Below are positions 2,369 through 32,481 of a stretch of 33,070 nt of DNA, in pieces; position 1 is the first letter of the stretch; every line of letters begins with the position of its first letter. Both the position numbers and the translations under genes were made by a program. The notes under the pieces are model-generated. The model saw only the letters and a program-made list of their open reading frames with translations, was not told the origin of the DNA and searched no databases. Source of the DNA: a virus; IMG/VR virus record IMGVR_UViG_3300033552_000037, positions 1 to 33,070 of that record, one strand, 5' to 3'.

Positions 2369-5149
2369 TTAAGGAACTAACACCCATCCAAAAGCAACTG
2401 CTCCCGTTAACGCTGTTAATGTAACAATGTCGTATGTTGTAGTTGTTTGATTTGTTACGTAAAAGCTTGCTGCACTTACTGCATTCTGTGCTACAGGTGT
2501 TACAACATAAGTATTATTTAATTGTGTTGGTATTGTAACCGTAAATGTAGATGTTGCTGTACCTGTTGCTGTAAATGTTCCTTTTATTACTTTTTGTGCT
2601 GCAATATCAGATAACCATGCTACTGTTTGACGTGTTAATGAAAACGGGGTTTGATAGAATCTTGTACCGTCAAACTCAAGGGCTCCAGAAATTGGCGTTG
2701 TTGCTAATGCTCCGGCCGCAACTGTACCTGCAACCGTTTGCGCTCCCGTTGTTGATCTTAAATAAGAAACCGAGTTTGTTGTACATGCCGTTACCGCTAC
2801 CGTAGCATTGTATCCAGTTGGTGTAATGCCTAACACCGTAATCATTTGCCCTACATAAAATGGAGGTGATAGCTGTGTGGCAAAACCAATAGTTGCGACA
2901 CTTCCCGTACCCGATGCCGAAGTAGTAACAAGCGTAAGGCTTGGAGTCATAACTATAGGTGCGCTCGTAGTTGTGCCGTGCTGCACGGTCAAGAACCCTG
3001 CTAACGGTGCACGCCCTAAGCCAAATTGATTAGCTGTATTTACTTCCCAAGCTTTTGTACCTGAATTTATTAAAGTAAAGTTGTTGGCAGAGTCGTTTAT
3101 AATCTGGTAAAAACTACCGCCAAAACTATTATTGCCGTTATATGTACTAAACTCAAGTACGGACTGAAATGATCCAGAAGGTTTTGTTATTTTAAAATAC
3201 ACATTACCTGATCCAGATATTCGAGCAGATGTATTGTCTGTTAAGTGCCAACCGTAAATGTCGTTTAATTGCAAAGGGCCGTTACGGTTATAAATCTGAC
3301 TTACAAACCCGTTGGGATTTGCAAAAGTCATGTGGTACGGGATAGTGTTGTCCGTTTTTGTTTCTAAATCTAGTACGGAATATACCCCTGCATTTGTAGA
3401 AGCTAATGCGACCGTTCCATATTGAGCACGAGTAACACCACTCATTGTTGTACCTGCAATATTGTTATAAGTAATTAATTCAACGGCATTATTAATGTTG
3501 TTGAATATCATTGCAGGGCCACGGTAATTAAATTGTGCAAATGTAGAAGAACCGACAAAACTTTTATCAGCGGTTCCCATTGGAGAAATTCCCGATTGAC
3601 TCCCTTTGATTATTTTAAGAGGAATTTGTGTGCGAATTTCGTTGTTTTTGTTTTTAGAATAATCCTTGCTAATATTTAAGTGCTGTAAAATAGCGTCACT
3701 CATTAGCTCATTTATTGCTGCGCCTGGGTGTATTCCGTCGTCAAATTGACTAAATGAACCAACTATGCTATTTAAATGAACTATTTTATTGGCCGGCAAA
3801 TTTGCATATATAGCGGCATTGAATATATTAATCTCTGTAGTATATGTATTCCTGTCTAACACAGTACAGAATGTTATATCTGTAAACCCTGCGTTATTCA
3901 ATCTTGTTATAAATGCTTGGTACTTCGTAAACGCTACCGTGCCTCCAGATGCAGAAACTTGATTTGACCCTAAAGGAAGTATAATCTTTTTTGGATTAAT
4001 CAAAACCAAATAATTAATAAATTCAGGTATATCAAAGTCGTCAATATTGGCCTGTCCACACGCCAATTTAACCAAGTCAACACCTGCATTATACAGGTTT
4101 GATTTATAGGTATATTCCTCGTTGTAGGTTGTAGCCCCTGCCGTAATTGAGTCGCCAATTATTACATATTCTGGATTGTATTTATTTAAATCTCTGAATA
4201 AGAATTTAGTAAACCCGTGATTTGCACCACCCATTGAGAAGATAGCCAACTTACCTATCCCTATTAATGAATTAGCTAACCCTAATTTAAGTTTAACCTT
4301 AAATGATATTGTGGGACGTGTTGAAACCGTAACATTTGTAGCGGTAATAAATACTTGATCTACGTTAAAAGTACATTTAATATCAATCAAATCACCTACA
4401 TTGACAGCGATAGACAACGTAGGCCCCACTATCCTGTCGGAAATATCTGCACCGCTATGAATTACCTTAAAAACTGATGCGCTCGAAACTGTTGTATCTA
4501 GTCCAAATTGGAAGTTACCTAAAAAGTAGGGTATGCCATACATTAACCCGTGTGTGTTAATGTCCCCAACTTTAGTTGTAACAGTAAATTGGAATTTATC
4601 GGACGCTACTTTATAAGCGTTAAGAGTCAATACGTTTCCACTACCTGCCGAACCGTTATTTACCGTAATTATTCCTGCACCTAAAGTCCACGTTGTTGTC
4701 CCTGCGTTTGTATAATTGGTTGCAACAGTACCAACAGCAAAAGCCTCTGAATATATTACACCAACTTCTTTATTTGTTAATTGATAGAAAGCATTATAAT
4801 CTCCTGCGGTTGGCATTGCTGCTGCTACTGTACGACCATTGAAGGACGTTAAGCCTGCGGAGCCGACACCAGAGCCAATTAAATAACTAGCCCACACGCC
4901 ACCTTGAAATACTCTATTAATTACCGATCCTGCAATTGCATAGGCTACGCCACCTATAGTTGATGTTCCTGCCAAAACCTTGACTTCGTATCCTAACCCT
5001 TCGACTCCTGTAGGATCTGTGAAAGTAGCCGATGCAGAAGCGTTATATAAGGCCCCGTTAACGGCTGTCGTGTTGGCTAAAACTACAATAGGATTTAATC
5101 CTACTATAATATCCCCTGTAAAATCTAACTTATTGTCTACGCTCTTCAT
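2369..5149 (-). CDS. Tail spike/fibre with SGNH (GDSL) esterase domain
   Basis: A 926-residue receptor-binding protein. A beta-rich N-terminal part (about 1-320) is followed by an SGNH-hydrolase domain at about 325-495. Block I is IIGDSITAG with nucleophile Ser334; block III is LPLGSNQ near 395; block V is DDGIHPG with Asp471 and His474. Such domains deacetylate or de-esterify surface glycans, so the spike probably edits O-acetyl groups on capsule or LPS during adsorption. The remaining 430 residues are low-complexity Gly/Thr/Ser/Asn-rich beta structure typical of fibre shafts and tips. The ATG overlaps the stop of the upstream fibre gene (ATGA), suggesting coupled translation. It is the last structural gene before the lysis cassette. 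Confidence 0.85.
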   Translation of the reverse strand: MKSVDNKLDFTGDIIVGLNPIVVLANTTAVNGALYNASASATFTDPTGVEGLGYEVKVLAGTSTIGGVAYAIAGSVINRVFQGGVWASYLIGSGVGSAGLTSFNGRTVAAAMPTAGDYNAFYQLTNKEVGVIYSEAFAVGTVATNYTNAGTTTWTLGAGIITVNNGSAGSGNVLTLNAYKVASDKFQFTVTTKVGDINTHGLMYGIPYFLGNFQFGLDTTVSSASVFKVIHSGADISDRIVGPTLSIAVNVGDLIDIKCTFNVDQVFITATNVTVSTRPTISFKVKLKLGLANSLIGIGKLAIFSMGGANHGFTKFLFRDLNKYNPEYVIIGDSITAGATTYNEEYTYKSNLYNAGVDLVKLACGQANIDDFDIPEFINYLVLINPKKIILPLGSNQVSASGGTVAFTKYQAFITRLNNAGFTDITFCTVLDRNTYTTEINIFNAAIYANLPANKIVHLNSIVGSFSQFDDGIHPGAAINELMSDAILQHLNISKDYSKNKNNEIRTQIPLKIIKGSQSGISPMGTADKSFVGSSTFAQFNYRGPAMIFNNINNAVELITYNNIAGTTMSGVTRAQYGTVALASTNAGVYSVLDLETKTDNTIPYHMTFANPNGFVSQIYNRNGPLQLNDIYGWHLTDNTSARISGSGNVYFKITKPSGSFQSVLEFSTYNGNNSFGGSFYQIINDSANNFTLINSGTKAWEVNTANQFGLGRAPLAGFLTVQHGTTTSAPIVMTPSLTLVTTSASGTGSVATIGFATQLSPPFYVGQMITVLGITPTGYNATVAVTACTTNSVSYLRSTTGAQTVAGTVAAGALATTPISGALEFDGTRFYQTPFSLTRQTVAWLSDIAAQKVIKGTFTATGTATSTFTVTIPTQLNNTYVVTPVAQNAVSAASFYVTNQTTTTYDIVTLTALTGAVAFGWVLVP

Positions 5150-6558
5150 ATCAAGTCTGAATCTATTACGTTATATGCGTTTGAAATTAAATTTGTGTAG
5201 GCGGCACCGGAAACGATGTTGAAATCTTTGTTTGATTCGCAATGTGAAATTTTAACATTTGCCCCCGAAGATATTTTTATAGAATCTTTAGTGATTTCAA
5301 GTTGTATTGATTCTGTATATTTTACAGATGCTCCGTCACCGATTGTAATTACATCTTTTAAAGATGTTGATATATTCTTAAACCTGCAATTGTAAATTGT
5401 GCCCAAATGAACGCCACTTGTTCCGCTTCCTTCACACCCTTCAATAACTCCAATGGCGGATGTTTTCCCAAAAGAGAAATTGCCTCCTTTGCAGTTTTTT
5501 ATTTTCCCTGAAACAGTTACAAGTGTTGGAGATGCACTGTTGCCACCAAATGAATATATTCCTGATTCACAATCCTGTATTATCCCAGAAATAACAACAT
5601 TGCAACCGCCACTTGAGCTTGATCCATAATTATTATCACCCGTAGATTTACACCCACGTATTATTCCAGAAATAAGTACTTCAAACCCAGAAGCGTTGCT
5701 GTTCCCAAAAGAAGAAAAAGGTGATTCGCAATCTTCAATTAATCCAGATATTATTACTCCACCTCCGCTGGCCCGCCCAAATGAAGTTCCGGTACTAGTG
5801 CATTTTTTTACTGTTCCTGAAATAGTAACTGCCGATGATGCGGAATAACCACAAGAGTTATTTAAAAATGAGCAATTTTCAACTATCGCGTTAGATAAAA
5901 TAGAACCTTGCAACACCGCCCCAACCGAACATTTAACATTATAATATTGCCCGTCCCACTCTGGCGCGTCTGTTGCTGCACTTATTATTACATTATCCCA
6001 TACACCAACATCCACAATACCAGTTCCGTGAGCAATTGAAAGGCCTGAAGCATTTGATATTGTCAAGTTTGAAATTTTATAAACAACGTTTGCTGAACTA
6101 ACTACAATTATAGATGTAAGTAGCGATGTTGAAAATATTTTTATATCTTCTTTTCTTCCAACACCTTCTATATTTACTAACCCATTCGCTAACATAGCAG
6201 TTGGTATGTCGTATCCACCTGACAATAAATACACAGTTGCTCTATTCGCCGATGTTAGGGATAAACCATTTGGAGTTTTAGCATTGCATGCAGCGATAGC
6301 AGCCAAAAGATTAACCCCGTTTTGCGCCGCGTTTCCTGTAGCTTTTACAACCTCATAATTTTGCCCTGAATATGGTATTCCCCCTATGCCGTCTACTAAT
6401 TCTTCGTGTGTTATTTTCCGAGATGAATTGACAGGGTAGTCAGGGGTTCCGTAAGTTCCAATGTTTTTGGAAACTTCGTACAAATCCTTTAGTCGAGCAG
6501 GATTATTTACCGACCCGTAAGGATCCAATTCAGGTATTTTCTTAGTAGGTATAGCCAT
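5146..6558 (-). CDS. Tail fibre, parallel beta-helix
   Basis: A 470-residue fibre protein. Residues 1-60 (IPELDPYG, LKDLYEVSK, SSRKITHEELVDGI) look like the conserved attachment end that docks fibres to the tail tip. From about residue 110 the sequence has the short strand-and-turn rhythm of a right-handed parallel beta-helix, as in pectate-lyase-like spikes. Residues 244-379 contain about six imperfect rungs of 24-27 residues with the pattern V-ISG-I--C-S. No catalytic residues are evident, so it may bind rather than cleave glycans. It starts at an ATG sharing one base with the upstream stop (TAATG) and overlaps the spike gene downstream. Confidence 0.8.
   Translation of the reverse strand: MAIPTKKIPELDPYGSVNNPARLKDLYEVSKNIGTYGTPDYPVNSSRKITHEELVDGIGGIPYSGQNYEVVKATGNAAQNGVNLLAAIAACNAKTPNGLSLTSANRATVYLLSGGYDIPTAMLANGLVNIEGVGRKEDIKIFSTSLLTSIIVVSSANVVYKISNLTISNASGLSIAHGTGIVDVGVWDNVIISAATDAPEWDGQYYNVKCSVGAVLQGSILSNAIVENCSFLNNSCGYSASSAVTISGTVKKCTSTGTSFGRASGGGVIISGLIEDCESPFSSFGNSNASGFEVLISGIIRGCKSTGDNNYGSSSSGGCNVVISGIIQDCESGIYSFGGNSASPTLVTVSGKIKNCKGGNFSFGKTSAIGVIEGCEGSGTSGVHLGTIYNCRFKNISTSLKDVITIGDGASVKYTESIQLEITKDSIKISSGANVKISHCESNKDFNIVSGAAYTNLISNAYNVIDSDLI
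5422..5829 (-). repeat. Imperfect tandem repeats encoding beta-helix rungs
   Basis: Within the fibre gene, about six units of roughly 72-81 nt encode the rung pattern (V/I)(I/V)-(I/V)SG-(I/V)--C. One Cys is present per rung, at residues 253, 277, 303, 330, 356 and 375. The repeats are diverged at DNA level. Confidence 0.75.
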
Positions 6559-9016: not shown

Positions 9017-9283
9017 CTACAATCCAGACTTTTTAAGCATATTAGTAAGCCCTGCCATAGCTTTATCCATTTTAGGTTTAATGCTGTGTAGCTCTTGTGA
9101 TTTAATATCAATCTCAGAAATATACCCATTCATTTTAGCACGCGTAACGGGATCTAAGCTGTCCACCAATTCAGGTGTAATTAATTTTTCAAACTGTTTT
9201 TTTAGTTGATCAACCACAGAAGCGGCAGAACTCATGCCCTCTAGCATTTTTGATAAGTCAGAATTATTCTCCGGTTGGTTCAT
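9017..9283 (-). CDS. Small helical tail-associated protein
   Basis: An 88-residue, mostly helical and charged protein with heptad-like spacing (SVVDQLKKQFEKLITPELVDSL, and IDIKSQELHSIKPKMDKAMAGL in separate stretches). The start lies inside the 3' end of the hub-like gene (20 nt overlap), and the stop is 2 nt before the tail-tip gene, so the three are translated from one message. It may be a small chaperone or a tail-tip subunit; no family is recognised. Confidence 0.65.
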   Translation of the reverse strand: MNQPENNSDLSKMLEGMSSAASVVDQLKKQFEKLITPELVDSLDPVTRAKMNGYISEIDIKSQELHSIKPKMDKAMAGLTNMLKKSGL

Positions 9284-11147
9284 AAATGTCCTGCTTTAAA
9301 TTATAAATATACTTTCTGCGAATCTTATAACTACAACTTGCTGTCTGCTTTGTAGGGTTGAATTTCAATGAAATCAATTCCCCCTCTTCGCCTTGCGGTG
9401 TAAATATAGCATTATTATTCCTTACAGTTTCATAATCGTCAAATGAAAATGGAAACTCTGGATTTTCTTTTAATACAAATTGATTCGCAGGTTTCCCATT
9501 GGATTCAACAAATGATTTTAAGTAATGGTAATTTTCATATAAGTAACGAGCATTTAACAGCTGCTTATTTCTCGCAGCCATTCGAGTGCTTCTTGGCGTT
9601 GTACTTTGATCTATAATGAACACCTTAGGGATAGTAACATAATCTGTTTCCATTTTAAGAACACCAACCCTATCTTTAATCATTTGTCCAAGTTGCGGAG
9701 TCTTTATTTTTTTAATTGGCTCTAACTTTATTTTAATTTTTATACCTATTGTGGACAATGATTTAAGTATGTTTTGAATTATCTCTATTAATACATTGAT
9801 AGCAATAATAGCAACATTTAAAGTAGTTATTATGACTGTCAAAGCTACCTGTATTCCTTTTGAAAATTCAAGCAAAAGCTCCTCTATTAGAGTTAATTCA
9901 GTTTTTGTTTTTCCTAAAGCAAACTGTATCCTTACTTCATTCAGACTCCTAAGAAGAGATCTTTGTTGGAATACTGCCGTTTTGGGAACAATGCTAACTT
10001 GTACAGAAGTTCCTAAATACTCTTGAATGGTATGCCTATCGTTTAAATCAGTCATGAATGAAACAATAATAGTAGAATTGAAGTCCTCATGGTTCAAAGT
10101 GAATGAGTCTTTATTATCGAACCTATCCGGAATAGTTATCCCGTTATTGCCTAGCTTAAAATCAAAAGGCTCAAAGTAAAGAACCCCGTCCGATATGACT
10201 ATTTTAGCGTTGAACATGGTTTTTAAAGCTCGCAAATAGTCTCCAAATGTCCCTTTAAAATACCCTATCTTTTCATTGTTATTTTTTAAATCTCCTGCCA
10301 ATCCTGCAAATATTCCGCTATTCCCTTCAAATACATTATACTTTTCTGGCATCAATACAAATCCCTTCCATTGCGGAGCCTGTAAAATGCTGCTTCTAAA
10401 TTGAAGGTTCATGTATTTGCACCCAATTTCAAACTGATCTAGCACAGTCATTACGTTGTGGTACTTAACAGGAGGGACAAGTAATGTAATAACTCGAATA
10501 ATCAAAGGTATAAGCGATGCAAATAATAAAACTAAGTAAACAATTTGCAAAATAAGCCTAGGTATGGCTGTCATTTCTAACGGATTGACAGAGTTTGCAA
10601 CAAGCTTTACTATTTCGGTTATTTGTTCCCTTATTTTGTCTACTATCAAAAATATAGTAACTAGAGTCATAGCAACTTCAAACCAATCTTGCTTCTTAAC
10701 AATAATGTAAGGTACAGGAATGAATTTATCTTTACTGAAATATCCAATCGAGTAGAGATATTCAAAAGAAAATGAGTCTGAGTAGTCGTTTAGCCAATCA
10801 ATAGAACCTGTTTCAACCGCAGGCGCTGTTACTTTGCCATTGTCGTATCGAGCCTTCCATAAGTCAACATAACCATCAAATATAGTGTATCGCTTACCGC
10901 GCTCGTTGGATAAAGTTATCTGTAGCTCTTTACCCTCAAGAATACCTACGCCTGTTTGATCTTTAAATTCTTTCTTTAAAATGAAAGCCCCGTCTATCCC
11001 GTCATTTTCCATAACGCCAAATTCAAAGTCGTTAATAGAAAGCGCTTGACCTGCTCCGTCTTTGTCCCAGTTTAACTCTAAAGATAATTCAGGGTAATTG
11101 TTCGGTGGATTTATTTCTGTTCCAAGAAGTTTGTATACTTGTTTCAT
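9264..11147 (-). CDS. Distal tail/hub-like protein with hydrophobic helices
   Basis: A 627-residue protein encoded directly after the tape measure gene, where siphophages encode the distal tail protein and hub. The N-terminal 130 residues and the central part (about 230-400) are beta-rich and resemble structural tail domains (LSLELNWDKDGAG, ITLSNERGKRYTIFDGYVDLW). Three strongly hydrophobic stretches are out of place in a capsid-type protein: about 156-170, 195-225 and 432-468. They could be buried core helices or segments that insert into the host membrane during DNA entry. The ATG overlaps the tape measure stop (ATGA). Tail location is secure from context; the exact role is inferred. Confidence 0.7.
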   Translation of the reverse strand: MKQVYKLLGTEINPPNNYPELSLELNWDKDGAGQALSINDFEFGVMENDGIDGAFILKKEFKDQTGVGILEGKELQITLSNERGKRYTIFDGYVDLWKARYDNGKVTAPAVETGSIDWLNDYSDSFSFEYLYSIGYFSKDKFIPVPYIIVKKQDWFEVAMTLVTIFLIVDKIREQITEIVKLVANSVNPLEMTAIPRLILQIVYLVLLFASLIPLIIRVITLLVPPVKYHNVMTVLDQFEIGCKYMNLQFRSSILQAPQWKGFVLMPEKYNVFEGNSGIFAGLAGDLKNNNEKIGYFKGTFGDYLRALKTMFNAKIVISDGVLYFEPFDFKLGNNGITIPDRFDNKDSFTLNHEDFNSTIIVSFMTDLNDRHTIQEYLGTSVQVSIVPKTAVFQQRSLLRSLNEVRIQFALGKTKTELTLIEELLLEFSKGIQVALTVIITTLNVAIIAINVLIEIIQNILKSLSTIGIKIKIKLEPIKKIKTPQLGQMIKDRVGVLKMETDYVTIPKVFIIDQSTTPRSTRMAARNKQLLNARYLYENYHYLKSFVESNGKPANQFVLKENPEFPFSFDDYETVRNNNAIFTPQGEEGELISLKFNPTKQTASCSYKIRRKYIYNLKQDIYEPTGE

Positions 11148-14302: not shown

Positions 14303-14799
14303 TATTTTTTATTCTTTTCAAGGATGAAATTTACCATTTCGTAAAAGTCGGAAACCATTGTGCTTTTCCTGTCAATCTTAAAACCCATTTCATGTTCAAC
14401 CCACGGGATCAATTTAATCAATTTTTTACCATGTTCTTTTGATTTGCCAAGGGATTCTATTTCATCTTCTAATAAATCAATATGAATTTGAGCTGAAAAG
14501 TCGCCAGAATAAATCTGTTTGCACTTCATTATTTCAAGATCAACACGCAAAGACTGCATGTGAACGAACTCTTTTGTAACTCCAAATACATCTATAAAGT
14601 TATATTCTAGATCTTCAAATGCCTTTGTTACACGTTTGCAAATCTTACCCGTACGGCTTAATTGTGTAGGGTCTGAATTATCATAAAGCTTAATCCAATT
14701 ATCCACAGGCATTTCTTTGACCGTTCTATAGTACTTCGTTAAGTATCGACCTTCGTATTGATTCGCGAAGTATTGGTAACATCTTTTGACCAAGTTCAT
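14302..14799 (-). CDS. Protein preceding tape measure, possible tail assembly chaperone
   Basis: A 165-residue, mainly helical protein encoded immediately before the tape measure gene, the usual place of the second tail assembly chaperone in siphophages. Recognisable stretches are KEMPVDNWIKLYD and a charged C-terminal helix. It overlaps the upstream gene by 74 nt in the +1 frame, with no strong Shine-Dalgarno before its ATG at 14797-14799. An in-frame TAA lies six codons upstream of that ATG, so any ribosomal shift from the upstream gene must occur within the overlap. Translational coupling by termination-reinitiation is the simplest reading. No named family is recognised with certainty. Confidence 0.6.
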   Translation of the reverse strand: MNLVKRCYQYFANQYEGRYLTKYYRTVKEMPVDNWIKLYDNSDPTQLSRTGKICKRVTKAFEDLEYNFIDVFGVTKEFVHMQSLRVDLEIMKCKQIYSGDFSAQIHIDLLEDEIESLGKSKEHGKKLIKLIPWVEHEMGFKIDRKSTMVSDFYEMVNFILEKNKK

Positions 14800-15205
14800 A
14801 TTTACTGTTTTCTGTTAATCCTAATATTTCGCCAAACTTATCGACTAAATCGCCGTCCTCTTTGCTCGTATTTGCTACGATTACGAACCCATCTTTTTTA
14901 ATATCTACTCTAAATGAGTCGTAAAATACACCTGAATCGTATAATGTGTAAGGTTCACCAACCTCTTTACGGGAAACTAACCCGTTAAATATATACGATT
15001 CCTCACCGTTAAGTAATGCAGTAGTATAGGAATACGTACCTATTACGTTGTCATCAACATCTAACCCTTCTTTATAAAGCTGCTCAATCCTGTTTAGCCG
15101 GATAATGAATTGCTTTATTTTAGGTATAGCAAAGACTGAAACAGATACAGTATTTACATCTAGATTAATAGTATTTTCAGCTAATCGTTTCAGAGAGTCA
15201 AGCAT
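14726..15205 (-). CDS. Neck/tail completion-like protein
   Basis: A 159-residue protein of a type common near tape measure genes in Bacteroidota phages. It has a helical N-terminus (IKQFIIRLNRIEQLYKEGLD) followed by YTLYDSGVFYDSFRVDIKKD and a C-terminal helix. The D-(S/T)-G-x-(F/L)-x-x-S block resembles HK97 gp10-like tail completion proteins (DTG-L--S), a loose similarity seen by eye only. Its 3' end overlaps the next gene out of frame by 74 nt. It starts 2 nt after the small paralogue gene at 15208-15360 and is probably co-transcribed with it. Confidence 0.6.
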   Translation of the reverse strand: MLDSLKRLAENTINLDVNTVSVSVFAIPKIKQFIIRLNRIEQLYKEGLDVDDNVIGTYSYTTALLNGEESYIFNGLVSRKEVGEPYTLYDSGVFYDSFRVDIKKDGFVIVANTSKEDGDLVDKFGEILGLTENSKYELGQKMLPILRESIRRSILNEVL

Positions 15206-15207
15206 AC

Positions 15208-15360
15208 CTACTTAATTTCTTCATGCGTAAACCATGTTTCATTTTGAACGCCAATAACATGGCACAGCTCAGGTTGTTTACTATTGGATGAAGGGAAAGT
15301 AATACATAGCAATCCTGTTTCGGATACATAATACATACTTATTCCACTTTCTGTTGTCAT
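15208..15360 (-). CDS. Tiny conserved protein, paralogue of 28611-28769
   Basis: A 50-residue protein, ATG at 15358-15360 to TAG at 15208-15210, with the stop 2 nt before the next gene. It shares SMYYV, GLLCITFPSS, ELC, VIG and QNETWF in the same order and spacing with the product of 28611-28769, so it is a real gene and one of a duplicated pair. It has two conserved Cys and no membrane segment. It is the first gene after the terminator at 15389-15420 and may head the tape measure transcript. Function unknown. Confidence 0.75.
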   Translation of the reverse strand: MTTESGISMYYVSETGLLCITFPSSNSKQPELCHVIGVQNETWFTHEEIK

Positions 15361-15363
15361 GCC

Positions 15364-15371
15364 TAAATATA
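15364..15371 (-). promoter_or_regulatory. Candidate -7 promoter element for tape measure operon
   Basis: On the minus strand this reads TATATTTA, 7 of 8 matches to the Bacteroidota -7 consensus TAnnTTTG. It ends 3 nt before the ATG of the gene at 15360 and lies just after a terminator. The -33 position has only a weak TTT match. If active, the transcript would be leaderless. Confidence 0.35.
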
Positions 15372-15388
15372 CGTTATTTAATTAAACG

Positions 15389-15420
15389 AAAAAAGCCACA
15401 TACACGTCAATGTATGTGGC
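15389..15420 (-). terminator. Rho-independent terminator of the lipoprotein cassette
   Basis: On the minus strand a perfect 10-bp stem GCCACATACA / TGTATGTGGC (15395-15404 with 15411-15420, loop of 6) is followed by six T residues and then CG. It closes the operon 17301-15516 and precedes the gene at 15360. The U-tract is on the minus-strand side only. Confidence 0.88.
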
Positions 15421-15515
15421 AATAAATAATACTCATAAATATAGCGCCTACAACTTTGGGTTTATTTCATCCGGCCAAAGTCAGCTATAATGTTTTGCCA
15501 CGCTACTTCTAAATA

Positions 15516-15608
15516 TTACTTTACTCTTAAATACTCCTTAATTAAATTACCTTTCCTTCCGTGGTACTTACGAATCAATACGTATGTGTTACCGTTTATT
15601 GCTTTCAC
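15516..15608 (-). CDS. Small GTG-start ORF after lipoprotein, possibly truncated
   Basis: A 30-codon frame begins with GTG at 15606-15608, overlapping the lipoprotein stop (GTGA), and ends at TAA 15516-15518. The product is basic (ends KEYLRVK). Past this TAA the same frame stays open for 17 further protein-like codons (YLEVAWQNIIADFGRMK) to TAA at 15462-15464. It may be an originally 48-codon gene cut by one nonsense change. Stop overlap and composition support coding; size and the non-ATG start limit confidence. The remaining DNA to 15421 shows no other gene. Confidence 0.38.
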   Translation of the reverse strand: MKAINGNTYVLIRKYHGRKGNLIKEYLRVK

Positions 15609-16021
15609 TTCAAATCATTAAGCCTAACAAACGCATGAGACATTCCCTGTGCGCTATTGTTTAAAGCTGACTTATGTTGATAGTCCGCCCGTATGCTCAT
15701 TACGTCTGTACTCAGCCCACTTGTATTCATTGTAACAAAATACCCTATGCCCATGTTTCGGGCGTCATACGGCTCATACCTAACAGCACTATTAGTCTTG
15801 ATTGTATCTTGCATCCAATTGCCATTTACAACGCGTTTCCAAATGTATGGCACGCGGTTTGAGTAAAGGGTAAATTTGACTAGTGTAGTGTCTGTTTCGT
15901 TGGTGTTTGTAGTGTCTCCTATCACGGTTGCTGTTATGTTAGTTTGTGGTATTGGTTCGTCATCTTCGCCACAGGAAGTAAGTAAGATTGAAGCTAGTGC
16001 AATAAATAGTAGTTTTTTCAT
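15605..16021 (-). CDS. Phage-encoded surface lipoprotein, exclusion candidate
   Basis: A 138-residue protein with a textbook lipoprotein signal: MKKLLFIALASILLTSC, lipobox LTSC, Cys17 as the lipidation site. The next residues are GEDDE; acidic residues right after the lipidated Cys resemble described Bacteroidota lipoprotein export signals that send lipoproteins to the cell surface. The mature 122 residues are Thr/Asn-rich and beta-like (about 35-135) with no other Cys, and no enzyme motif is visible. It is not a virion-type gene. By analogy with phage lipoproteins such as T5 Llp and TP-J34 Ltp it may block superinfection by masking a receptor or stopping DNA entry; this is inference. It is the last full-size gene of an operon led by an XRE regulator. 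Confidence 0.85.
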   Translation of the reverse strand: MKKLLFIALASILLTSCGEDDEPIPQTNITATVIGDTTNTNETDTTLVKFTLYSNRVPYIWKRVVNGNWMQDTIKTNSAVRYEPYDARNMGIGYFVTMNTSGLSTDVMSIRADYQHKSALNNSAQGMSHAFVRLNDLK

Positions 16022-16239
16022 AGTTGGTTATTTGTTAGTGAAATATGTGGATGTTGTTTAATTGTGTATTCGAATGTGAGTAGCTTGTCGTTATGTTCTT
16101 TTCCTTTGCTTTCAAACTTAATAAATTCATCCATTAAGTCGCAAATATCAAAGCTTTCCCCGTTACCAAATGTGACAATCCAAACGATATCCGATCCCGA
16201 AAAGACCCCTTTTTGTTGTAAGAATTTAACTGCGCTCAT
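16018..16239 (-). CDS. Small hypothetical protein, lipoprotein cassette
   Basis: A 73-residue soluble protein with a beta-like N-terminal half (SDIVWIVTFGNGESFDICDLMDEF split by turns) and a polar C-terminus. The stop overlaps the start region of the lipoprotein gene by 4 nt, and its ATG overlaps the stop of the gene before it, so it is embedded in the same operon. No family recognised. Confidence 0.65.
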   Translation of the reverse strand: MSAVKFLQQKGVFSGSDIVWIVTFGNGESFDICDLMDEFIKFESKGKEHNDKLLTFEYTIKQHPHISLTNNQL

Positions 16240-16592
16240 GGTTTGACAATTTTAATTATTGTTTCAATGTTGCAATTGCGGCCGATTGAATCTTTTATCC
16301 TGCCAGATTCGACCTTAACCCAAACCGATTGTAATATAATATCTCCATAATTACGAACCAATTCAATAGCATGTTGATTATTTGCCCAATCCGACCCTAC
16401 AAATCCAATTTTTATTGTAGTAGGCTTAACGTCAGATTTCAAAAGCATCTTGTACATAACACGCTTACTCCTGAAAACCTTACCAACCAAACTATCGATT
16501 GAAATTTCTTTTGATTTAATCGGTTTGCCTGTTTTTAAATTAACTATACCGTTTTCGTGAATATTTTCGAATAATTGTCTAGCACTTTTCAT
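16236..16592 (-). CDS. Hypothetical protein, lipoprotein cassette
   Basis: A 118-residue basic protein (helical N-terminus KSARQLFENIHENG, then IGFVGSDWANNQHAIELVRNYG near 82-104). Overlaps of 4 nt on both sides place it inside the regulator-lipoprotein operon. No signal peptide or membrane segment is present. I do not recognise the family. Confidence 0.7.
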   Translation of the reverse strand: MKSARQLFENIHENGIVNLKTGKPIKSKEISIDSLVGKVFRSKRVMYKMLLKSDVKPTTIKIGFVGSDWANNQHAIELVRNYGDIILQSVWVKVESGRIKDSIGRNCNIETIIKIVKP

Positions 16593-17110
16593 AACTCAAC
16601 TTTTCTTTTTAATGCTTCATTAATAGCTTCAAGCTTGAAGTCTTCAAAAGAATCTATTGATTCACATAATGGACATGTGTTAAATTCATTACCTTCATCT
16701 GTATAGTCGCTTTCTATTTCATCATGCAAAACCATACACCCACAATCTAAACATTTTAATTTTGTTTTTTCATATTCAAATACATAGTTAGGATTTGGTG
16801 TATGATCAAAAACAAGATGGTCATTATTAAATGTAAAATCAGTTACGCCAAAAGACTTTAATTGTTCAATCTTTGATTTGTCAGTAACAATGCCTTCTAC
16901 TGAAATATATTCACCACCTGCACTCCTAAATACCTGCTCTGCTTTAGTGATAATATACCTATTATTATATCCTGAACTATCAAGTAATTTTTGATTCATT
17001 TTACCCTTGTATTCAAATGTTGCTTCTCCCTCCCTAACAATTATAGTTTTCGATTGACCATCTTTAGGATGTGGTTTTATTGAATACAAATCAATTAATA
17101 CTTTAATCAT
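16589..17110 (-). CDS. Zinc-ribbon protein, lipoprotein cassette
   Basis: A 173-residue protein with a beta-rich N-terminal part (about 1-110) and a zinc-ribbon near the C-terminus: CLDC at 120-123 (plus Cys125) and CPLC at 146-149, separated by an acidic loop. The last 25 residues form a charged helix. Zinc ribbons of this kind bind nucleic acid or proteins, so a regulatory partner of the XRE protein encoded just before it (ATGA overlap) is possible, though unproven. Not a virion-type protein. Confidence 0.72.
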   Translation of the reverse strand: MIKVLIDLYSIKPHPKDGQSKTIIVREGEATFEYKGKMNQKLLDSSGYNNRYIITKAEQVFRSAGGEYISVEGIVTDKSKIEQLKSFGVTDFTFNNDHLVFDHTPNPNYVFEYEKTKLKCLDCGCMVLHDEIESDYTDEGNEFNTCPLCESIDSFEDFKLEAINEALKRKVEL

Positions 17111-17301
17111 AACTCAACTTTAAAATTTAAAACCTTTTCAATATTTGCCAAGTCAAAAGGCCTTGGCTTGCGCTCGCTTCGTTCGATATAACCTACGTAA
17201 TTTGTAGTTTTTCCGATCAAAACAGCTAGATCCTGTTGACTTAACCCTTTAAACTTTCTACGCTTATTTATTTGCCTTCCTACCGATAATTTAATTTCCA
17301 T
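17107..17301 (-). CDS. XRE-family HTH regulator of the lipoprotein cassette
   Basis: A 64-residue protein that is a single Cro/C1-type helix-turn-helix domain (about 7-60): INKRRKFKGLSQQDLA, IGKTTNYVGYIERSERKPR, IEKVLNF. It has no dimerisation or cleavage domain. I place the start at ATG 17299-17301; a TTG two codons upstream (17305-17307) would add two residues but lies inside the -7 promoter element. Upstream DNA holds three palindromes sharing AACAA/TTGTT half-sites, one across the -33 element, so the protein very likely represses its own operon, which ends with the lipoprotein gene. Its stop overlaps the next start (ATGA). Confidence 0.88.
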   Translation of the reverse strand: MEIKLSVGRQINKRRKFKGLSQQDLAVLIGKTTNYVGYIERSERKPRPFDLANIEKVLNFKVEL

Positions 17302-17304
17302 ATT

Positions 17305-17336
17305 CAAACTTACTATTATCTAACGACAATAACAAA
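17305..17336 (-). promoter_or_regulatory. Promoter of the XRE/lipoprotein operon
   Basis: On the minus strand TTTG (17333-17336), a 20-nt spacer and TAAGTTTG (17305-17312) fully match the Bacteroidota -33 TTTG / -7 TAnnTTTG consensus. The -7 box ends 3 nt before the ATG at 17301, so the predicted transcript starts at or next to the start codon (leaderless). The -33 element lies inside the palindrome 17331-17344. Confidence 0.72.
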
Positions 17337-17375
17337 TATTTGTTACAATATTGTTTATTGTTTAACAATTGTTAA
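17331..17375. promoter_or_regulatory. Operator array: three palindromes with AACAA/TTGTT half-sites
   Basis: Three perfect palindromes lie in 45 bp upstream of the XRE gene: AACAAATATTTGTT (17331-17344), ACAATATTGT (17345-17354) and TTAACAATTGTTAA (17362-17375). All share an ACAA/TTGT core, as expected for multiple sites of one dimeric repressor. The first covers the -33 promoter element, giving a direct route to repression. AT-richness makes short palindromes common, but three related ones in this place are unlikely by chance. Confidence 0.68.
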
Positions 17376-17378
17376 CAT

Positions 17379-17410
17379 AAAAAAGAGCCTCAGCATGTGC
17401 CAAGGCTCTT
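17379..17410 (-). terminator. Rho-independent terminator of the cold-shock gene
   Basis: On the minus strand AAGAGCCT (17410-17403) pairs with AGGCTCTT (17390-17383) across a 12-nt loop and runs into six T residues (17384-17379). It lies 31 nt after the csp stop and just upstream of the operator array, so it separates the csp transcript from the XRE operon. Confidence 0.88.
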
Positions 17411-17441
17411 AAGTTCTTGCGGGTATTTGAACGGGTGTTTA

Positions 17442-17633
17442 TTAAATCACTTTCACACCAACACAATTAAGACCTTTTTTGCCTTCAATCGTATCAAATG
17501 TTACTTTGTCATCTGTTTTTAGATCGGTAGTCAATCCGCTTGCGTGTACGAATAGCTCTTTGCCTGTTTTGTCATCAATGATGAAACCAAAACCTTTTTC
17601 TTTATTATAGAATTTTACTTTACCTGTATTCAT
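17442..17633 (-). CDS. Cold-shock domain protein (CspA family)
   Basis: A 63-residue single cold-shock domain: GKVKFYN at 4-10, RNP1 KGFGFI at 13-18 and RNP2 LFVHAS at 27-32, ending NCVGVKVI. Csp proteins bind single-stranded RNA or DNA and act as RNA chaperones or antiterminators. The usual length is about 65-70, so it is complete. It is odd between two tail genes: it has its own promoter candidate upstream and a strong terminator downstream, and so forms a monocistronic unit, probably a host-derived moron. It may favour translation or transcription read-through of phage messages; the target cannot be told from sequence. Confidence 0.95.
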   Translation of the reverse strand: MNTGKVKFYNKEKGFGFIIDDKTGKELFVHASGLTTDLKTDDKVTFDTIEGKKGLNCVGVKVI

Positions 17634-17654
17634 GATACTTTTATTTACTGTTAA

Positions 17655-17681
17655 TGTTTATTTTGAACTTAAAAATAAACA
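17655..17681. repeat. Inverted repeat upstream of csp
   Basis: TGTTTATTTT (17655-17664) and AAAATAAACA (17672-17681) form a perfect 10-bp inverted repeat around a 7-nt loop. It overlaps the candidate -7 box of csp, so it may be an operator; it could also be a weak terminator-like hairpin for the upstream gene ending at 17705. Only two G-C pairs are present. Confidence 0.4.
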
Positions 17682-17704
17682 TAATTACTTATAAATCAAT
17701 GCAA
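17676..17704 (-). promoter_or_regulatory. Candidate csp promoter
   Basis: On the minus strand GTTG at the -33 position (17702-17705 region), an 18-nt spacer and TATGTTTA (17676-17683, 7 of 8 to TAnnTTTG) give a fair promoter match. The transcript would have a leader of about 35-40 nt before the csp ATG. Confidence 0.42.
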
Positions 17705-18622
17705 CTATTCCCTTAAATGAGTTAGGTTTTGGAAGTAAGGATTAAATTTAAGGATAACAGGCGCAAACATAACCCCCTGCACCCAAACAGGAGCATATTC
17801 TGAATTAGGCACAACCTCCCTGTCTACGTGTCTAGTCGGGTTTTGGCTATTGTAATCATTAATAATCACACGCCCCGACTGCATCATGTCTGTTCTTAGG
17901 AACCTATGAACAGGCTCAGGCATTCTACCTATTTGCCATGTAAACTCTTCTACTTGGTCATCTTGCGTCCATATTTGGGAACCATTTGGATACTTAATAT
18001 AAGTTCTTTCGAAATTGCTAGTTTCAAGTCCGAATATTGATCTAGGCAAACGAAGGGAATTATAATAGTTTAGATTCCCAAAGTCATCTATTTTAGAGTC
18101 AGATTCTTTAGAGCCTAAAATACCTTTTCGATACCATTCAGCTCGTACGGTAAAGTCTGCCCTATCGCTTGTATACTTTTGCAGTCTAAATTCAAATGAA
18201 TAGTAAGTAACAGCACCACCAATAGACGGAGTTCCCTCGCCTTTAAACCTATAAACACCCTCTCCTTTTGCAACGAGTATTTTAGCCCATTCAATTTGAT
18301 AACCGATTGCTTTTTCAGTGAATTTATTTGTGTAGAACCCAAACGCTTTAAATGTTCCATAGTCATCATTGACCAGTTCTTCATCTACATACACCCCGTT
18401 TACTTTTTTCTGAATATAAATCTTAGCATCCGGAAACAATTCACCAAAGAACCATATAACCGAGTGTTTATCGTTTTTATACTTAGATGTAAATGAAAGT
18501 TCCGCAAGTGCAGGAAGTTCAAAGCAGCATTCAGCCTTCTTTGGGATTAAGTCTAGGTTATCCGTACCCGTTCCCGTGGTATTTAGTATATAAAAGTCCT
18601 GCTTTATGGCTTGTCCGTTCAT
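17705..18622 (-). CDS. Tail-associated structural protein
   Basis: A 305-residue protein, beta-rich and aromatic throughout (WFFGELFPDAKIYIQKK, YYSFEFRLQKY, WQIGRMPEPVHRFLR), without signal peptide or membrane segment. Position between the major tail protein and the tape measure block indicates a tail role. I recognise no named domain. It follows the terminator at 18652-18683; no strong promoter was seen between, so read-through or a weak promoter must serve it. It ends just before the csp unit. Confidence 0.65.
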   Translation of the reverse strand: MNGQAIKQDFYILNTTGTGTDNLDLIPKKAECCFELPALAELSFTSKYKNDKHSVIWFFGELFPDAKIYIQKKVNGVYVDEELVNDDYGTFKAFGFYTNKFTEKAIGYQIEWAKILVAKGEGVYRFKGEGTPSIGGAVTYYSFEFRLQKYTSDRADFTVRAEWYRKGILGSKESDSKIDDFGNLNYYNSLRLPRSIFGLETSNFERTYIKYPNGSQIWTQDDQVEEFTWQIGRMPEPVHRFLRTDMMQSGRVIINDYNSQNPTRHVDREVVPNSEYAPVWVQGVMFAPVILKFNPYFQNLTHLRE

Positions 18623-18651
18623 AATATTTTATTTATGTAAATGTACTAAAT

Positions 18652-18683
18652 AAAAATGCCTTCACAATTAAGCGAAGGCATTT
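18652..18683 (-). terminator. Rho-independent terminator after major tail protein gene
   Basis: On the minus strand AAATGCCTTC (18683-18674) pairs with GAAGGCATTT (18663-18654) across a 10-nt loop, followed by TTTTTATTT. It begins 29 nt after the stop of the major tail protein gene. It would raise the relative yield of the abundant tail tube protein over distal genes. Confidence 0.85.
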
Positions 18684-18711
18684 CCAACATGAAAACCAAA
18701 TCAACAAACAA

Positions 18712-19632
18712 TTAAACAGTAAATGTTTTAGCAATAACTGGGGCAAAGTCGAAACCTGCTTTAACCGGAGTTAATTTCTTAACCACAGTTGTTAGTGTGC
18801 TAGGAATAACGAACACATACGTACCAGACAATGCAGGCGTTTCCGTTACCGATGTGATTACGATTGGAGATCCATTGCCCGTTAGGGTAAAGTCTGCCAA
18901 AACTAACCCAGACGCATTATATTTGTCTCCTTGAGTAAATAAAGTAGCAAGTTTTGCAGTGAATCCAGTTGTTGTAACGCTCGTAAACGTAGAGTACACA
19001 TCCAACAACCCCTTTAAGGATAACAAACCACCTTCAACTAAAGAATCATTATACACTCGCAGCAATGCATCATTTTCTTTCAATCCAAACTGAAACGATA
19101 CAGTCAAGTATTCATTTGTTGTAGATGAAGCAAAAATGTAATTAGAGTCCAAAGAAGAGGGTTGCATTTTGATTGGATATAAGTCTTGACCTTCTTTAGT
19201 CTTAACAATACCCATCAACTTACCTTGGCTATCTATTAAATAGAATGCTAACTCATCGCATTCACACGCTTTTAATTGTCCTAAGTAGATTGTGCTTTGG
19301 CCTCTTACTTGGAAATTGACAGTACGCGCGCCTTGCTTGATAAATTCACGTGAACCGTTATCAAGCTCTTCAAATGTTGATTCCGATCTCGTAGATTCAA
19401 ATGCATTTAAAGGGGTTGCGATTGGATACCAACGCTTAGATGCATCCGTCTGATTGATTTGTGCTGTTAAGAACGCATCATCAAGAACTTCGTTAGCTGC
19501 TATTTTATTTTCTGTTCCGTCGTTTGCATACGCATACGTAACAATTATGCCGGCTACATCTTTAAAGTTTGACCCGCAAACTTTAAGATAGCCAGTATTA
19601 CCGATTCCTGTTAAACATTCTTCTGCTGCCAT
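18712..19632 (-). CDS. Major tail (tube) protein
   Basis: A 306-residue protein with the N-terminal pattern of siphophage tail tube proteins (MAAEECLTGIGNTGYLKVCG) and a beta-barrel-like body to about residue 205, followed by a Thr/Val/Gly-rich beta domain (about 205-306) that may be an Ig-like decoration domain on the tube surface. It lies after the neck genes and is followed at once by a strong terminator, as expected for a highly expressed structural gene. The identification is by gene order and fold-like composition. Confidence 0.75.
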   Translation of the reverse strand: MAAEECLTGIGNTGYLKVCGSNFKDVAGIIVTYAYANDGTENKIAANEVLDDAFLTAQINQTDASKRWYPIATPLNAFESTRSESTFEELDNGSREFIKQGARTVNFQVRGQSTIYLGQLKACECDELAFYLIDSQGKLMGIVKTKEGQDLYPIKMQPSSLDSNYIFASSTTNEYLTVSFQFGLKENDALLRVYNDSLVEGGLLSLKGLLDVYSTFTSVTTTGFTAKLATLFTQGDKYNASGLVLADFTLTGNGSPIVITSVTETPALSGTYVFVIPSTLTTVVKKLTPVKAGFDFAPVIAKTFTV

Positions 19633-28443: not shown

Positions 28444-28614
28444 TTATGATATTTTAGTAATGAATTGATAGATACCTTTTTTTATTTCTAAAATATAGTG
28501 GTGTCTCATAAAGCATTGGAAGCTGTGAATATCAGAAAAAACATATCTTATATCAACCCTCCACGCTGGCATATACTCTACCCTGTATTTAGGCTTTGGT
28601 GTTTCTGGTTTCAT
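28444..28614 (-). CDS. Small basic hypothetical protein
   Basis: A 56-residue basic protein, ATG at 28612-28614 overlapping the stop of the preceding small gene (ATGA), TAA at 28444-28446, 4 nt before the next ATG. It is aromatic and basic (AWRVDIRYVF, FMRHHYILEIKKG). Exact fit between neighbours supports it as a gene. Role unknown. Confidence 0.6.
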   Translation of the reverse strand: MKPETPKPKYRVEYMPAWRVDIRYVFSDIHSFQCFMRHHYILEIKKGIYQFITKIS

Positions 28615-28769
28615 TCTTTCCTCTCGTTAGTCATTTCTTTATGCTTAAACCAAGTTTCATTTTGAAGTCCAATAACTGTACATAATTCAGCCTTTTCCCC
28701 ACTAGACGAAGGGAACGTAATGCATAGCAATCCTTTTGATGTGACATAATACATGCTTAGTTCTTTCAT
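28611..28769 (-). CDS. Tiny conserved protein, paralogue of 15208-15360
   Basis: A 52-residue protein, ATG at 28767-28769 (ATGA overlap with the preceding gene) and TGA at 28611-28613 (overlap with the next). It shares the ordered blocks SMYYV, GLLCITFPSS, ELC, VIG and QNETWF with the gene at 15208-15360; about 30 of 43 aligned residues are the same. The two copies lie in the early region and at the head of the tape measure block, so one product may act early and one late. No known domain. Confidence 0.75.
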   Translation of the reverse strand: MKELSMYYVTSKGLLCITFPSSSGEKAELCTVIGLQNETWFKHKEMTNERKE

Positions 28770-31482: not shown

Positions 31483-31829
31483 CCCTTCTCCCGAGCTTCA
31501 ATCGGGTTATTATGTATATATAAATGGCCTTCACGGCTTACAGACAACCACGTGTTAGTGTCTAGGTAGTATTTATCCCTATCCTTTCCGCAATGCTTGT
31601 GATGAACTTCAGTAGCGAAATTCTGGGGGTATATTGCACATGTTGCATTTTCGGATAAGAATTGAATATTTAGTTTCTTATACTCAATATCTGCGACTTT
31701 CCGTTTAGCTGACTTCTTATTGATCGGCTTACGTGGCTTAGGTGGCTTTCCCTCTTTTGGAGGACTGAATGCAGATTGATCTTTTGATATTGGCCCTTTT
31801 TTATTCATATAAGTTAAATATTTTTTCAT
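31470..31829 (-). CDS. HNH-type nuclease-like protein
   Basis: A 119-residue protein: basic Pro/Lys-rich N-terminus (about 25-45, PPKPRKPINKKSAKRK), then an HNH-like core with Cys64, EVHHKH (His76, His77), LDTNTW and GHLYIHNNP (His102, His106). Such proteins occur in phage recombination or late-nuclease clusters. The start chosen is ATG 31827-31829, overlapping the methyltransferase end; an ATG at codon 8 (31806-31808) is also possible. Confidence 0.75.
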   Translation of the reverse strand: MKKYLTYMNKKGPISKDQSAFSPPKEGKPPKPRKPINKKSAKRKVADIEYKKLNIQFLSENATCAIYPQNFATEVHHKHCGKDRDKYYLDTNTWLSVSREGHLYIHNNPIEAREKGWLF

Positions 31830-32481
31830 CTATTTCTATGCCAAAAAAGTTTTTATTTTGCTCTTTACAAACAGCCCCAACTATTCCGCTTCCTAGAAAT
31901 GGGTCTAAAACAGTTCCATTTTCAGGACAAAAACAATTAACAATTATATTTATTAAATCTTTTGGCTTAGAAGGTATTTTTCCAGTATGTGGCTTATTAA
32001 AATGATAGTGGTCTCTTATCCAAGTGCCTTCATCTGACTTGTTAAATTGCTTTCCTTCTTCTTTCCAGTCTCCAAAAACTTTAGTGCTCCGCTTCATTGA
32101 TTTTGTTTTTTCTGAATAGTCAAGTCCAGTCCTAACATTTATGTAAAACTCTTTAGATAGCGTTAGTCAAAATATTTTTTGAAAAGAAACTAAAGGCATC
32201 TTCTTACTTACCCATGCGCCGCCATTTGAAAAAGTCCATATAATTTCACGTCTAAATATGTGGTTTACTTCATTTCTTAAATTATAATCAAACGGCTGTT
32301 TTGTGAAACAGATAATATTTCCAGTTAATTTAGTAACCCTAACAGCCTGGCAAATTAAACCTTCTTCACAAAGCTTGTCCCAATCTTGGTAGTTTGGATC
32401 TAATATTGTCAAATCTATGCTATGATCTTCTATTTTAGACATGATTTGCATCGAGTCTCCTAGTCTAATTATTTCGCTCAT
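31801..32481 (-). pseudogene. N6/N4 DNA methyltransferase broken by an in-frame TGA
   Basis: Two open frames, 32167-32481 and 31801-32097, are the halves of one 226-codon methyltransferase in the same frame. The N-terminal half has GDSMQIM and the catalytic DPNY (28-31); the C-terminal half has KPHTGKIPSKP and the SAM-binding LDPFLGSG (192-199), an order typical of beta-class enzymes. They are parted by one TGA codon (32167-32169, codon 105), after which the frame goes on with LTLSKEFYINVRTGLDYSEK. The site fits a conserved aromatic position, so TGG (Trp) to TGA is the likely change. Other genes here end with TGA, so the code is standard. The product would be a 104-residue fragment unless the stop is read through. 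Confidence 0.85.

Follow-up and report, generated by a model that had tools for sequence, protein, structure and literature searches.

Why should a small operon encoding a lipoprotein and its own putative regulator lie in the middle of a phage tail gene cluster? The window studied here, 33,070 bases long, is a whole IMG/VR record, classed as linear and possibly a fragment. The phage is siphovirus-like, judging by its gene content. Several of its tail proteins have homologues of about 25% identity in Flavobacterium phages Fpv5, 1/32 and tant8-1, and relatives of its terminase are present in many Bacteroidota genomes. Judging by these similarities, the phage host is a member of the Bacteroidota. 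A search for near-identical DNA among phage records gave nothing useful, and a scan of genome contigs using region 9264-11147 as query produced no matches. When the terminase was used as an anchor for relatives, most contigs were found to end before the tail cluster. Elsewhere in the record, the beginning of an endolysin (410-844) recurs at the N-terminus of an adjacent GIY-YIG endonuclease frame (841-1443), which looks like an insertion into a second copy of the lysin gene. Two frames, 31801-32097 and 32167-32481, resemble a DNA methyltransferase split in two and are possibly remnants of a broken gene.

The relative most useful for comparison, IMGVR_UViG_3300036900_000158 (47,818 bases; hereafter G011, with loci L172, L177 and L178), is collinear with the window across the head and tail genes, most of which encode proteins of about 40-80% identity. 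In the window, a gene resembling that of a major tail protein (18712-19632; on the minus strand, as are the genes, promoter and terminators of the region described below) is 50% identical to its G011 counterpart (L178:6344-5415). It has no convincing family match, and its assignment, taken from the earlier note, is by position. A terminator hairpin follows (18654-18683; minimum free energy, MFE, of the stretch -20.8 kcal/mol, z -6.6) and is likewise present 3' of the major tail gene of G011. There, the next gene is directly the homologue of 14726-15205, a tail protein of family phrog_6195 (E 2.5e-15; 66% identical in G011), with nothing else between. Because these flanking tail genes are adjacent in G011, the window region ~15208-18700 is by this comparison an extra insert. 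It spans about 3.4 kb, with the terminator at ~18,680 as one limit and the gene at 15208 as the other. The earlier note had delimited a block at 15389-17410. The block is real and is absent from the same site in G011, but the true insert is larger, since it also takes in a tail gene (17705-18622) and a cold-shock gene (17442-17633). At the other end of the insert is a 50-residue gene (15208-15360), missing from the G011 site, whose paralogue lies far away in the record, at 28611-28769 (67% protein identity; 127 bp at 76% DNA identity). A coding tandem repeat with units of the EFRGGYFLGG type was also seen in G011 (L172 6003-6542; contig 41483-41715).

What does the operon within this insert contain? 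The gene order, overlaps, terminators, palindromes and lipobox described in the earlier note are all present, as verified by an overlap check, folding z-scores and shuffles. One terminator separates the cold-shock gene from the operon (17383-17410; 12-pair stem; stretch MFE -19.5 kcal/mol, z -4.3) and another closes the operon (15395-15420; 11-pair stem; MFE -16.9 kcal/mol, z -5.0); both fold far better than shuffled sequence. Between them are encoded an XRE regulator of 64 residues (17107-17301), a 173-residue protein with a C-terminal CxxC...CxxC zinc ribbon (16589-17110), two proteins of 118 and 73 residues without significant family match (16236-16592 and 16018-16239), a lipoprotein of 138 residues (15605-16021) and a 30-residue GTG-start frame that overlaps the lipoprotein stop codon (15516-15608). 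The five consecutive junctions linking these six frames are each a 4-nt overlap, ATGA or GTGA. The GTG frame is 87% identical to L172:4449-4538, with 3, 3 and 10 differences at the first, second and third codon positions, respectively. Given this conservation in G011 and changes mostly at third positions, we consider that the frame is a real coding gene.

The zinc-ribbon protein matches Pfam Zn_Ribbon_TF below the cut-off (E 0.017). No homologue was found among viral contigs, phage records, relatives and 397 genomes, in a search run without a positive control. An exact 15-nt repeat, AAAGTTGAGTTATGA, is present on the minus strand at 17121-17107 and 16603-16589, that is, at both overlap junctions of this gene, and the XRE and zinc-ribbon proteins share the C-terminal end KVEL. 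The identical flanks on both sides suggest that the zinc-ribbon gene was added by recombination at a microhomology of the overlap junction. GC contents give a mixed picture, with 29% for the zinc-ribbon gene, 41% for the lipoprotein gene and 35% for the window.

The XRE regulator is a member of the HTH_3 family (Pfam E 1e-9; 38.3 bits versus a curated cut-off of 23) and has C-protein-like matches; PADLOC returned generic HTH matches only. Upstream of its gene, three palindromes with AACAA/TTGTT arms (17330-17375) are putative operators for this protein. They are TTAACAATTGTTAA (17375-17362), ACAATATTGT (17354-17345) and TAACAAATATTTGTTA (17345-17330), and the last one covers the -33 box of a predicted promoter. 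This cluster of three is the only one in the window, with 0.17 expected per shuffled window, and was reached in 0.8% of local shuffles. Both G011 promoters described below have the motif CAAATRTTTG at the corresponding position. The promoter itself is a Bacteroidetes-type element, TTTG-N20-TAAGTTTG (17305-17336). The pattern by itself is near chance (3 found versus 1.4 expected in the window), and the window element recurs with identical spacing at two homologous sites of G011. As a prediction, the own promoter proposed in the earlier note is therefore strengthened by homology. In F. psychrophilum, the -7 box has been mapped to positions -12 to -5 (PMC9723704). The same distance here would put the predicted transcription start at ~17300, so that the XRE message is probably leaderless. 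Given this promoter and the two terminators, the operon is probably expressed apart from the late genes, as had been suggested.

In G011, the two promoter regions align over 107 nt at 85% identity (E 6e-26), including 48 nt that are identical. One copy precedes the lipoprotein operon and the other precedes an XRE operon that includes a RecT gene. Given this near-identity, the lipoprotein and recombination operons of G011 are probably regulated together. A scan of viral contigs with the promoter pattern gave 79 matches, and related XRE or lipoprotein genes were found only at the two G011 copies.

Phage lambda bor and lom are morons, and Bor is a lipoprotein. Like morons, the genes considered here are extra genes with their own promoter and terminator, placed between genes that are adjacent in a relative. 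Unlike the lambda morons, they come with their own regulator, their promoter is shared with an early recombination operon in G011, and there is no sign of a prophage state. The lipoprotein gene could be a classical prophage moron, expressed in a lysogen for exclusion or conversion and held down by the XRE repressor. The promoter and terminator, the repressor-like gene and the empty site in the relative would all fit such a moron, but we regard it as improbable. A profile search detected no tyrosine integrase (PF00589) in the window, which is possibly a fragment, or in G011, lysogeny genes are reported absent from the distant relatives Fpv5 and tant8-1 (PMC7077304), and the near-identical promoter of G011 drives the XRE-RecT operon. 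Lysogenic conversion, one of the two roles proposed in the earlier note, is unsupported, given the lack of a detected tyrosine integrase and the distant relatives reported to be devoid of lysogeny genes. For the lipoprotein, the other role, superinfection exclusion, continues to be the most plausible guess.

Is the block a single unit? In G011, its parts are split over two loci. The first contains a homologue of tail gene 17705-18622, a terminator, the promoter, three small genes, the lipoprotein gene, a gene for a 73-residue membrane protein and the 30-residue gene; the three small genes are unlike the accessory genes of the window. The second, located after the lysis genes, contains the cold-shock gene (67% identical), a terminator, the promoter, a 61-residue gene and the XRE gene (51%), and continues to RecT. 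The cold-shock gene of the window (Pfam CSD E 1e-15) thus has its homologue 5' of the G011 XRE gene. The order in the window (17705-18622, cold-shock gene, terminator, promoter, XRE, accessory genes, lipoprotein) merges both loci. On the evidence of gene order, the insert is a mosaic of two G011-type loci rather than one unit. The description of the block as self-contained does not hold, as the lipoprotein has its partner in a tail gene outside the block, and the G011 counterparts of the XRE gene and promoter are part of an early regulatory locus.

The tail gene 17705-18622 encodes a protein matching phrog_12180 (E 1.3e-19) over residues 30-264, which is most of the protein. Its homologues in Flavobacterium phages Fpv5, 1/32 and tant8-1 are located at the distal end of the tail operon; in these three phages and in contig L186 the gene comes after the large tail genes. 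In phage 1/32, the homologue (49% for the family part) is fused to a segment that matches (35%, E 3e-39) the tail protein encoded before the homologue in Fpv5. This position and this fusion indicate that the family is very probably a virion tail protein. By analogy with known systems, the protein is possibly receptor-binding. Its AlphaFold2 model was unusable (pLDDT 37). Counting against a receptor role, the window has other fibre-like genes at 2369-5149 and 5146-6558.

The lipoprotein has a signal peptide with a TSC lipobox, MKKLLFIALASILLTSC, the cysteine of which is invariant in five members. The acidic sequence GEDDE that follows the cysteine resembles the surface-export signals of Bacteroidetes lipoproteins (PMC5080379), the match being inexact in some members. 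The AlphaFold2 model is a predicted beta-sandwich (pLDDT 71) for which no significant structural match was found, and the folds of Llp and Cor were absent from the match lists. The best hit was MmpS5 (Z 8.3, rmsd 3.1, 89 aligned); such middling beta-sandwich matches were set aside as reflecting a common arrangement. A Cor-like homology (phrog_1119, E 0.0017) was rejected because the match disappeared once the signal peptide was removed, and the score against NF047972 was 13.5 bits for a cut-off of 31. As judged from these comparisons, the lipoprotein is not a Cor/Llp homologue. Matches to the lipoprotein profile in Flavobacteriaceae (20 of 397 genomes) were also rejected. Ten of the loci were examined: BLAST similarity was confined to the signal-peptide end, no homologue of 17705-18622 was nearby, and most matches lay in much longer frames.

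How closely is the lipoprotein tied to the tail gene? Contigs were scanned with lipoprotein patterns as sole query. Full homologues were found in four other contigs, and a homologue of 17705-18622 lies just upstream in all five cases, window included. Identities to the window lipoprotein are 74-76% for L172 of G011, 34-38% for L008 and 32% for both L173 and L174. The gap between the tail gene and the lipoprotein gene is 10-18 nt in L008, L173 and L174, 967 nt in G011 and 1683 nt in the window, where it contains the cold-shock, XRE and zinc-ribbon genes and the two genes without family match. The histories of this pair and of the terminase are in conflict. L008 and L173 share 94% and 92% identity for the tail gene and the lipoprotein, respectively, yet have unrelated large terminases (28%). 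The corresponding values are 66% and 76% between the window and G011, with 31% for the large terminase, and 48% and 38% between the window and L008, with 79% for the large terminase. Thus, the terminase closest to that of the window is found in L008 and the closest pair in G011. The location of the pair also differs, as it is 5' of the terminase in L008, L173 and L174, in the tail cluster in the window and elsewhere in G011. This joint history in conflict with the terminase, together with the shifting genomic position, shows that the tail gene and the lipoprotein gene are a co-transferred module, exchanged independently of the terminase. Several phages (L183-L186) have the tail gene homologue without the lipoprotein; on this distribution, the lipoprotein is not obligatory for the tail gene.

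Two alternatives bear on this linkage. In one of them, the lipoprotein would be an accessory surface protein altering the host in another way (fitness, adhesion or lysis timing), and its proximity to the tail gene would reflect shared mobility at terminator and promoter boundaries. The complete difference between the window and G011 in the genes separating the pair, as well as the phages having the tail gene only, are in line with this explanation. The constant linkage of the five lipoprotein homologues to the tail gene and the joint history of the pair against the terminase make it rather unlikely. In the other alternative, the lipoprotein would be a late virion or lysis partner, acting in tail assembly or as an outer-membrane spanin-like protein, and would be made with the tail genes. 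This would agree with the 10-18 nt gaps in L008, L173 and L174, where the two genes lie 5' of the terminase genes as if co-transcribed. However, a terminator and a separate promoter divide the two genes in both the window and G011, most relatives have no lipoprotein, and G011 has a separate spanin-like gene, read from sequence, at L177:8479-9099. We therefore give such a late role little credit. L008 and L174 have in common an element, GCGTAAATTTGTC, a few bases before the start codon of the tail gene homologue, which is likely a promoter of the pair's own (TAnnTTTG), from which the message would be near-leaderless.

The explanation that we tentatively prefer, while holding it somewhat short of an even chance, is that a tail protein, possibly receptor-binding, is paired with a cognate superinfection-exclusion lipoprotein expressed from an autoregulated promoter of early type. 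The host RNA polymerase would transcribe from this promoter shortly after the DNA enters the cell. The XRE protein would then bind the palindromes over the -33 box, capping expression of its own operon. The resulting short burst would place the lipoprotein in the outer membrane, where it would occupy or deform the receptor used by the tail of this phage. Related phages would be excluded, and the progeny would be spared binding to infected cells or debris.

Exclusion proteins of this kind are known beside tail genes. In T5, llp adjoins the gene of the receptor-binding protein pb5 (oad) on the downstream side, and Llp excludes superinfection (PMC9586334). As with T5 pb5/Llp, Cor of T1-like phages and Rtp45, the window has a small gene for a predicted outer-membrane lipoprotein beside a tail gene. 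Unlike Llp and Cor, to which it has no sequence or detected fold similarity, the window lipoprotein has 138 residues instead of ~60-78. Llp is periplasmic, whereas the GEDDE sequence of the window lipoprotein resembles a surface-export signal. The partner is a receptor-binding protein in T5; here, it is a tail protein with a putative receptor role. In small siphophages (Drexlerviridae and others, BASEL collection), the loci of receptor-binding proteins are thought to encode cognate exclusion proteins and to be exchangeable (PMC8594841). The window pair is similar in being an exchangeable association of a tail gene with a putative cognate exclusion protein. It differs in changing genomic position, the BASEL loci being fixed downstream of gpJ, and in belonging to phages of Bacteroidota hosts.

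Superinfection-exclusion lipoproteins have been characterised mainly in coliphages, and none from Bacteroidota phages was found in the literature searched. A broader proposal, more doubtful than the explanation preferred above, is that Bacteroidota phages trade a tail-tip protein together with a dedicated lipoprotein, whose family has no relation to Cor/Llp, across unrelated packaging genes. This would let a phage switch receptor and, in the same step, close the corresponding door, the lipoprotein being placed under the XRE-controlled promoter of the recombination operon. If this is true, the linked, exchangeable pair would be a genomic handle on phage receptors in Bacteroidota and would make receptor-specific exclusion readily testable. 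The shared promoter suggests a way in which such a lipoprotein may be timed early in lytic infection.
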